Shown here in pieces: positions 1,446 through 3,883 of a stretch of DNA of 24,254 nt (position 1 is its first letter; every line of letters starts with the position of its first letter). The notes under the pieces were generated by a model that saw only the letters and a list, made by a program, of their open reading frames with translations, was not told where the DNA came from and made no database searches. The DNA comes from a virus: IMG/VR virus record IMGVR_UViG_3300047564_002913, positions 1 through 24,254 of that record, one strand, 5' to 3'. The position numbers and the translations under genes are program-made.

Positions 1446-1520
1446 ATGTCGGTGGCAGACAAGAAATGCAGCAGTCTCCAAAACTGCCTTATGTGGGAGC
1501 GTTACCCACCCGACATGCCA
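1446..1520 (+). tRNA. tRNA-Trp (CCA), atypical T-loop
   Basis: The acceptor ATGTCGG/CCGACAT is a perfect 7 bp, followed by discriminator G and an encoded CCA (1518-1520). The anticodon stem GCAGT/ACTGC encloses loop CTCCAAA, giving anticodon CCA (Trp). The T-stem GTGGG/CCCAC is perfect, but its loop is AGCGTTA instead of TTCRANN, and the D-loop lacks the usual GG. Bases 54 and 58 become A and U instead of U and A. The gene starts 8 nt after tRNA-Met, so the two are probably one transcript. Confidence 0.85.
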
Positions 1521-1521
1521 T

Positions 1522-1617
1522 TTTGTACTGTGGTTAAGAGCCTAATAACCCTCGGCGCTGGTCTACGTGGTAGGGTCACCATACGTAAGCAGAGGGCAGA
1601 ACCCATAACAGTACAAA
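1522..1617 (+). ncRNA. Unassigned structured segment between tRNAs (possible divergent tRNA)
   Basis: The segment lies exactly between tRNA-Trp and tRNA-Gly and is closed by a perfect 10 bp helix (1522-1531 with 1608-1617). Internal pairings include GGTT/AACC (1532-1535 with either 1547-1550 or 1600-1603), CCCTC/GAGGG (1549-1553 with 1592-1596) and a hairpin 1565-1571/1578-1586 with a two-base bulge. The size fits a long-variable-arm tRNA and GGTT/AACC sits where a D-stem would, but I could not place an anticodon arm or a T-arm. It may be a degenerate or unusual tRNA, or a rod-like RNA. No convincing ORF explains it. Confidence 0.35.
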
Positions 1618-1623
1618 TTTTTC

Positions 1624-1694
1624 GCGGTGGTAGTATAATAGTAGTACAGGAGTCTTCCAAACTTCGGGCCTCGGAGCGTAACCGTGTCACCGCA
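1624..1694 (+). tRNA. tRNA-Gly (UCC), atypical T-loop
   Basis: The acceptor GCGGTGG/TCACCGC pairs with one G:T. The D-stem is GTAT/GTAC with a 7-nt loop AATAGTA lacking GG. The anticodon stem GGAGT/ACTTC has loop CTTCCAA (anticodon TCC, Gly). The T-stem CTCGG/CCGTG has one T:T mismatch, and the T-loop AGCGTAA again lacks TTC and carries A54/U58, nearly identical to the tRNA-Trp loop at 1498-1504. CCA is not encoded. Confidence 0.75.
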
Positions 1695-2551: not shown

Positions 2552-2628
2552 GGGATCATAGCTCAGTTGGTTAGAGCGCCTGCCTGTCACGCAGGAAGTC
2601 AGGGGTTCAAGTCCCCTTGGTCCCGCCA
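2552..2628 (+). tRNA. tRNA-Asp (GUC)
   Basis: A canonical bacterial-type tRNA: acceptor GGGATCA/TGGTCCC, D-loop with GG, anticodon arm CCTGC/GCAGG with loop CTGTCAC (anticodon GTC), T-arm GGGG TTCAAGT CCCC, discriminator G and an encoded CCA (2626-2628). It begins 2 nt after the phosphatase stop. Confidence 0.95.
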
Positions 2629-2633
2629 TTTTA

Positions 2634-2706
2634 GGATCTTTAGTGAAATGGACTATCACTCAACGCTACGGACGTTGCATTCCAGGTTCGAATCCTGGAG
2701 GATCCA
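2634..2706 (+). tRNA. tRNA-Arg (ACG)
   Basis: Acceptor GGATCTT/AGGATCC, D-stem GTGA/TCAC with a GG-containing loop, anticodon stem CAACG/CGTTG with loop CTACGGA (anticodon ACG, Arg), and T-arm CCAGG/CCTGG with canonical loop TTCGAAT. CCA is not encoded. It ends 1 nt before the convergent nucleotidyltransferase stop codon. Reading of CGY/CGA would need A34-to-inosine editing. Confidence 0.93.
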
Positions 2707-2707
2707 A

Positions 2708-3478
2708 TTAAAAACTTTCTGTATAAATTTTATCGTAAGCAGAATTCGCTATTTGAATAAGACGTTCTATATCCCCACTGTTGCGAAGCTTTTTAAACAC
2801 CAAATTTTCTACACAAAATTCACCTTCTTGTTTAACATTTAAACACTCTTTTCTTTCTTTTTGTAATTTATCTTTAAGATGTTGAGCAAAACTGCTTAAT
2901 TCTTCTAATTCTTCTTGAGATAGGTTTTCTTGATTTAGTTTGTCTTCTAATTGGTTTATAATTTTAACATATTCGTTAAACTTTAATTCTACAGAACGTT
3001 CATCAACCTCTGGTGGATTATATTGAGGTTTACGTAACCATTTATCAAATTTTAAACTATACAAACCAGAAGCACTGTGAGGTTCATTTATATCTTGCAA
3101 ATATAATTCTACTTCATGACCTTTAATTGTTATTTGATGGCGAAGATTCCAAACAAACCTTACACCGTCTAACGCTTTTTTAACTAAATCTATATCTTTA
3201 TTAACCTTAGAAAAATCAATAAGGATATGAACATCCAAATCTGAATAATCTGTGTATGTATAATTTGCCAATGACCCAGTTAATTGGATATCTTCTATAG
3301 GTATATCCAATTTTAAATTTTGATAAAAATTTTCAGCTATTTTAATTAATTTATCTTTAATTTTTTCGTTGAAATCCCCATTTTGCCAAAAATCTGGATC
3401 CAACTGGTCGTTGTAATATTGTTCCAAAATCATGTTTTGGTATACATTTTTAATATTATGTAGATCTGGACGAAACAT
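2708..3478 (-). CDS. Nucleotidyltransferase-fold protein
   Basis: A 256-residue protein of the DNA polymerase beta-like nucleotidyltransferase superfamily. The signature is LTGS (G68, S69) followed by YSDLDVHILID (D80, D82), the GS-x(n)-DxD pattern that binds nucleotide and metal. A third acidic residue is probably E124 in the HEVELYLQD strand. The C-terminal third is helical and coiled-coil-like (about residues 160-215). Similar predicted nucleotidyltransferases occur in large phages, with unknown targets. The N-terminal 25 residues precede the domain and include ILE, a possible (L/I)xE prohead-protease site. The gene has a CATAAATA late-type motif 6 nt before its ATG, unusual for an enzyme and consistent with delivery in the virion. 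It converges on tRNA-Arg. Confidence 0.75.
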   Translation of the reverse strand: MFRPDLHNIKNVYQNMILEQYYNDQLDPDFWQNGDFNEKIKDKLIKIAENFYQNLKLDIPIEDIQLTGSLANYTYTDYSDLDVHILIDFSKVNKDIDLVKKALDGVRFVWNLRHQITIKGHEVELYLQDINEPHSASGLYSLKFDKWLRKPQYNPPEVDERSVELKFNEYVKIINQLEDKLNQENLSQEELEELSSFAQHLKDKLQKERKECLNVKQEGEFCVENLVFKKLRNSGDIERLIQIANSAYDKIYTESF

Positions 3479-3811: not shown

Positions 3812-3883
3812 GGACGGTTAGCTTAGCGGTAGAGCACCTCGTTTACACCGAGGGGGTCGTAGGTTCGAACCCTACACCGTCCA
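3812..3883 (+). tRNA. tRNA-Val (UAC)
   Basis: Acceptor GGACGGT/ACCGTCC, a D-arm with AGCGGTA loop, anticodon stem CCTCG/CGAGG with loop TTTACAC (anticodon TAC, Val), and a canonical T-loop TTCGAAC. CCA is not encoded. It begins at the base after the SemiSWEET stop codon, so it must be cut from that transcript. Confidence 0.95.

Follow-up and report, generated by a model that had tools for sequence, protein, structure and literature searches.

Introduction

Few features of tRNAs are as strongly conserved as the elbow contacts, and what keeps their sequence constant has long been asked. Which departures from it have been described? In work from the Steinberg laboratory (NAR, 2003; cited in PMC7912444), randomisation of the D- and T-loops reportedly yielded functional E. 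coli suppressor tRNAs in which the 54:58 pair could be replaced by G54-A58 or G54-G58. Both the D-loop and the T-loop are altered in the staphylococcal peptidoglycan tRNA-Gly, a tRNA-Gly(UCC). A54-A58 occurs naturally in the initiator tRNA-Met of eukaryotes and in some tRNA-Ala; in tRNA-Ala this change accompanies one at 15:48, and bacteria and archaea are said to lack the unusual tRNA-Ala pairs (PMC7566577). In phages, tRNAs with mutations in the anticodon loop are proposed to escape anticodon nucleases (PMC10264068). The trn operon of Anabaena comprises 26 tRNA genes that are silent until translational stress, and its repressor TrcR is shared with rtcB (PMC10272220); neither the T-loop nor the D-loop is mentioned in the text of that paper, and T-loop, D-loop and elbow are absent from the texts of three papers on phage tRNAs (PMC10264068, PMC13015707, PMC11555353). 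We found no published report of tRNAs that combine A18-G55 with A54-U58, although most subscription journals lay outside the search and an earlier report is possible.

Here we analyse two such tRNAs in a complete IMG/VR record of 24,254 bases (hereafter the window), whose tail sheath is similar to that of T4-like phages.

Results

Six tRNA genes in the window

All six tRNA genes of the window (Table 1) were recovered with full stems by a custom-built, relaxed cloverleaf finder. ARAGORN called the tRNA-Trp and missed the tRNA-Gly, and Rfam RF00005 (cut-off 29) gave 44.2 bits to the tRNA-Gly and 39.2 bits to the CAT-anticodon tRNA, with the tRNA-Trp absent from its list. A sequence-only reading had pointed to T-loops AGCGTTA and AGCGTAA in tRNA-Trp and tRNA-Gly beside canonical Met, Asp, Arg and Val neighbours, and we confirmed these loops where it had placed them. 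It had also described both D-loops as lacking G18G19, which holds for one base of the two: G18 is lost and replaced by A, and G19, which pairs with C56, is still there, the D-loops reading ..AATAGTA.. in Gly and ..ACAAGAA.. in Trp. Compared with the elbow contacts of an elongator tRNA, 19:56 is the canonical G19-C56 and two pairs have been exchanged jointly, G18-U55 to A18-G55 and U54-A58 to A54-U58. The cloverleaf, with its conserved and covarying stems, is that of an elongator tRNA. The tRNA-Trp has the identity base G73 and the CCA anticodon, and the anticodon loops of the two variants, CTCCAAA and CTTCCAA, are the usual ones, also found in canonical tRNAs. Taken as a 7-mer irrespective of context, AGCGTNA shows no enrichment in the window (8 observed against 6.3 expected), so that the signal is its location in T-loops. 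Folding of the single sequences gave a cloverleaf for Trp and none for Gly, and does not discriminate.

Table 1. Features of the window discussed in the text
Feature	Position	Strand	Details	Detected by
CAT-anticodon tRNA (Met/Ile)	1366-1437 (Rfam span 1366-1438)	+	T-loop TTCGACT, canonical; D-loop GG; internal control	Rfam, cloverleaf finder
tRNA-Trp(CCA)	1446-1520 (tRNA body 1446-1516)	+	T-loop AGCGTTA 1498-1504; A18 at 1462; G19 at 1463; discriminator G73 at 1517; encoded CCA end	ARAGORN, cloverleaf finder
Structured non-tRNA RNA (candidate)	1521-1620	+	about 100 nt, between tRNA-Trp and tRNA-Gly; 8-bp closing stem	
tRNA-Gly(UCC)	1624-1694 (tRNA body 1624-1693)	+	T-loop AGCGTAA 1675-1681; A18 at 1640; G19 at 1641; CCA not encoded	Rfam, cloverleaf finder
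tRNA-Asp(GUC)	2552-2624	+	T-loop TTCAAGT, canonical; internal control	ARAGORN, Rfam, cloverleaf finder
tRNA-Arg(ACG)	2634-2705	+	T-loop TTCGAAT, canonical; internal control	ARAGORN, Rfam, cloverleaf finder
Nucleotidyltransferase-like protein gene	2708-3478	-	adjoins tRNAs; poly(A) polymerase palm domain, weak match below cut-off	Pfam
tRNA-Val(UAC)	3812-3882	+	T-loop TTCGAAC, canonical; internal control	ARAGORN, Rfam, cloverleaf finder

An encoded CCA is missing from some of the window tRNAs, which have the nucleotidyltransferase-like gene next door; the homologue of the tRNA-Gly in the related contig L160 has an acca tail. The candidate RNA between the two variant tRNAs has no T-arm beside its acceptor-like stem and no Rfam match; it is carried by L160/L234 at 91.5% identity with three compensated pairs, and is missing from three other contigs (L143, L147 and L154).

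Recurrence among viral tRNAs

Viral contigs were scanned twice for an anticodon loop together with AGCGTNA in the T-arm, and the matches were filtered with the cloverleaf finder; a loose Gly pattern drowned in chance matches, and tighter patterns were adopted. All sequences gathered, mostly from metagenomic fragments, comprise 78 distinct tRNAs with AGCRTNA at 54 loci and with 18 anticodons. Close relatives, in which the sequence-only reading had proposed to look for the loops, do have them: the same AGCGTAA tRNA-Gly occurs in six related contigs (L142, L143, L144, L147, L154 and L160). L160 (the same contig as L013), the nearest relative found, has AGCATTA in its tRNA-Trp, and its tRNA-Val(UAC) has AGCGTAA, whereas that of the window is canonical. 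Relatives identified through the phosphoesterase (L001-L013) had no tRNAs in the upstream regions at the corresponding place.

Might these genes be decaying pseudogenes or artefacts of tRNA calling? The tRNA-Gly missed by ARAGORN and folding alone into something other than a cloverleaf, and the tRNA-Trp unlisted by Rfam, would suit such an origin. However, in a 15-member Trp family, both partners have changed in 14 of the 20 stem pairs and pairing holds in 99.3% of cells, a value reached in none of 500 shuffles; moreover, CCA ends are encoded, the loci number 54, and the loop changes are matched. We therefore consider this origin barely credible, and as a general account decay is refuted by the covariation. 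The coordinated functional variant that had been proposed instead is strongly supported by its recurrence in dozens of unrelated contigs, by the two-sided stem changes and by the covariation of 18:55 with 54:58 described below; judged on these sequences, the AGCGTNA tRNAs very probably do work as tRNAs, with compensation in the elbow.

How common is this form? In viral contigs retrieved via the anticodon arm alone, 1140 distinct tRNAs included 1004 with TTCRA, 33 with ATCGT and 13 with AGCGT, so that, of the tRNAs in viral contigs rich in them, about 1% carry the double swap. AG accompanies G55 in 27 of 34 tRNAs of this sample, and GG accompanies U55 in 1050. Cultured phages are also represented. 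Phage f2b1 (MN940411) has a tRNA-Phe with AGCGTTA and AG at about 136597-136667, unannotated as a tRNA; Aeromonas phage AhP_Mru1 (PV190393) has a tRNA-Phe with ATCGTTA and GG, Erythrobacter phage XM05 (PV416404) two GGCAGGA tRNAs with AG, and Stenotrophomonas phage DLP_6 and Xanthomonas phage X1 ATCGTNN with GG. The T-loop of a Rhizobium phage tRNA-Pseudo-CCA is canonical and not switched. Some switched Trp tRNAs (L186, L190, L195, L205 and L206) have very short D-regions of 15-16 nt, whose D-loops of about 3-4 nt still contain AG.

Covariation of the elbow positions

The gathering searches constrained only the anticodon and the T-loop and never specified the D-loop; the presence of AG in the D-loop of all 78 AGCRTNA tRNAs is therefore a free observation. 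We calculated mutual information for 350 non-redundant tRNAs of one D-loop length, with redundancy controlled at 85% identity and no tree. The pair 54:58 ranked highest of all pairs tested (0.726), followed by 18:55 (0.683), with shuffled maxima of about 0.03-0.06; next came 54:60 and 58:60, which rank high because A60 accompanies the swapped 54:58 pair. At 18:55 the combinations were GU (273), AG (67), GC (8), GG (1) and UU (1), with A18-U55 at zero, and A54-A58 occurred in 4 of the 350. The sample gathered by the anticodon arm alone, at a fixed D-loop length, agrees: all eight A18 tRNAs have G55, and all G55 tRNAs have A18. Between two tRNA-Asp genes of 83% identity (L198 and L483), the D- and T-loops differ by G18A and U55G only.

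The two exchanges are separable, in that ATCGTNN with GG, TGCRANN with AG, GTCRGNN with GG and GGCRGNN with AG were all found. Overall, 54:58 was seen as UA, AU, GG and CA, and 19:56 as GC, AU, CG and UA. The U55U56 tRNAs have GA in 18 of 18 cases, and the usual companion of G56 or A56 is, as a tendency, C19 or U19. Taken together, the D-loop holds the dinucleotide predicted from positions 55 and 56 in 471 of 481 tRNAs (275 plus or minus 9 when shuffled), and in 145 of the 149 tRNAs other than U55C56 (108 plus or minus 3). Individual tRNAs with A19-U56, C19-G56 or U19-A56 in place of G19-C56 were seen in L162, L205, L171 and L198.

Fully switched arrays and RNA-repair genes

Most contigs mix canonical and variant tRNAs. 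In phage G015, all 22 tRNAs of the array are switched. Among bacteria and archaea, whose genomes were scanned once for the Trp form of the variant, three Verrucomicrobial MAGs have arrays whose detected tRNAs all have G55 (9/9, 16/16 and 19/19), and the housekeeping tRNAs sampled from the same MAGs are canonical (22/22). In the fully switched arrays 18:55 is the constant contact and 54:58 varies freely. Two Patescibacterial MAGs (L252 and L260) have a chromosomal tRNA-Trp with AGCGTCA and A18; a canonical tRNA-Trp was not detected by pattern in these MAGs, which may be incomplete, and a class-wide search of Patescibacteria gave nothing beyond these two cases among 192.

Switched arrays keep their identity elements: G3:U70 in all Ala, long V arms in Ser and Tyr, and G73 in Trp, Gln, Asn and Asp. 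This bears on the idea that such tRNAs do not serve translation but engage, as decoys or sponges, an enzyme of the host that binds tRNAs. Phage tRNAs are documented to rescue phages from a retron or PrrC (PMC11555353). However, conservation of the identity elements and of CCA over whole isoacceptor sets speaks against a decoy, and a changed elbow should lower rather than raise recognition by enzymes that read tRNAs; we regard this role as highly unlikely.

Fully switched arrays are linked with RNA-repair genes. A TROVE (Ro60) gene adjoins two of the Verrucomicrobial arrays, one of which also has RtcB and a sigma-70-like gene. Of 27 viral records, the one that proved to have TROVE is the fully switched G015, inside whose array it lies, and RtcB was found only in G016, where a larger stretch has G55 in 18 of 20 tRNAs and C55 in the other two, and in G222, where the tRNAs are mostly canonical. 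A contig shared with RtcB or TROVE was found for 5 of 5 fully switched records and for 1 of 25 other viral records (Fisher p 4e-5), a grouping that was noticed before testing and is partly post hoc, in records of unequal length that are mostly fragments or MAGs. A follow-up search for TROVE in 388 genomes of the phylum yielded two new genomes with strong matches (G308 and G410), in both of which the adjoining tRNAs are switched, and four weak matches with no array nearby. The Verrucomicrobial TROVE protein had no close viral relative that we could find, and plasmids gave two weak matches. TROVE/Ro60 genes inside or beside A18-G55 arrays were noted at five loci (L535, L536, L541, L279 and L280), the last of which also has RtcB and a sigma-70-like gene. 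Neither gene was found in the relatives G002, G004 and G005, or among the ten proteins of the window that were scanned with Pfam, which are part of its proteins.

Discussion

Why might the elbow have been exchanged? Comparison of sequences has established covariation, recurrence and array-wide switching, which suggest a second, working kind of tRNA elbow rather than decay. A18-G55 stands in for G18-U55, and A54-U58, with A60, for U54-A58, while G19-C56, R57, the stems and the identity elements for charging are unchanged. We infer that the variant tRNAs fold into the L-shape, are charged and are used. That they are real tRNAs of translation with an exchanged but compensated elbow, and that evasion is the most likely reason, is the overall explanation that we hold to be reasonably probable.

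Its main competitor is structurally neutral drift, according to which phage tRNAs are free of the elbow constraints of the cell and tolerate any compensated combination, with no evasion. The many combinations at 54:58 and 19:56, the mixing of canonical and variant tRNAs in most contigs, and states with a single swap (ATCGTNN with GG, TGCRANN with AG) are all consistent with drift. In contrast, drift would not predict arrays with A18-G55 in every isoacceptor while 54:58 varies, or canonical housekeeping sets plus a switched array beside Ro60/RtcB on bacterial chromosomes, and we consider it possible but doubtful.

Evasion would mean that the altered elbow hides these tRNAs from a reader of the canonical G18, U54 and U55. 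Candidates for such a reader are tRNA nucleases of the host, enzymes that modify tRNAs, and decay steps that depend on the elbow. Of the reasons considered we take this to be the most likely, at somewhat less than an even chance. While canonical tRNAs suffer damage, the phage would retain a selected part of its decoding capacity, here that for Trp and Gly, and arrays that are switched throughout and lie beside Ro60/RtcB genes would represent such a replacement set in full. The hypothesis of nuclease or modification evasion is made more likely by the linkage to RNA repair, which speaks for escape from a nuclease, a modification enzyme or a decay step that reads the elbow; the reason for the switch would be read from linkage in other genomes. 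With two of its six tRNAs switched, the window is not what complete evasion would predict; because only Trp and Gly are switched, evasion, if it is the reason, is partial in this phage.

A narrower form of the argument is that the selected property is avoidance of modification in the T- and D-loops (m5U54 by TrmA, pseudouridine 55 by TruB and Gm18 by TrmH), for example if infection leaves too little of these enzymes or if something recognises their products. The substrate bases of TrmA, TruB and TrmH are U54, U55 and G18, respectively. Thus, G55 and A18 remove the bases used by TruB and TrmH, and A54 that used by TrmA; moreover, it is 18:55 that stays constant where an array is fully switched. 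However, many switched tRNAs (TGCRANN) keep U54, and those with ATCGTNN keep U55 and G18, so that no single enzyme accounts for all states. Avoidance of modification as the selected property is unlikely in our estimation, less so than the decoy role.

Returning to evasion in general, we speculate, as a tentative extension that is perhaps less probable than its contrary, that phages, and RNA-repair islands of bacteria, possess a second tRNA set coded in the elbow, which would be invisible to readers of the canonical elbow and would sustain translation during destruction of canonical tRNAs. The contacts 18:55 and 54:58 (and 19:56) might then be evolvable recognition bits and not fixed structure. 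The linkage of fully switched arrays to Ro60/RtcB is a concrete lead on function. Each elbow contact has now been seen exchanged and compensated in natural tRNAs, and the cultured phages among their carriers allow direct tests. Standard tRNA callers miss such genes, as with the tRNA-Gly of the window and the tRNA-Phe of f2b1, and phage tRNA inventories are therefore probably undercounted.

How do these tRNAs compare with known systems? They share with the canonical bacterial elongator tRNA (Rfam RF00005) the cloverleaf stems, the anticodon loop, the identity elements, R57 and G19-C56, and differ in the exchanged 18:55 and 54:58 and in A60, which replaces a pyrimidine. Like the phage tRNAs mutated in the anticodon loop, they are phage variants proposed to evade a defence that targets tRNAs; unlike in those, the anticodon loops of the window Trp and Gly are unaltered. 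The Anabaena trn operon offers a parallel as a second tRNA set that is co-regulated with RtcB. The parallel that the sequence-only reading had drawn with the staphylococcal peptidoglycan tRNA-Gly fails, since that case is restricted to tRNA-Gly, whereas here the variant is spread over 18 anticodons and G19-C56 is kept. In eukaryotic tRNAi and tRNA-Ala, U54 of the 54:58 pair is also naturally replaced, but there A54 faces A58, and here it goes with U58 and with the exchange at 18:55. Finally, natural tRNAs with G54-G58, as in the Steinberg suppressors, were found in this study; in contrast to that laboratory selection, the variants described here are natural and recurrent, and include A54-U58 together with A18-G55.
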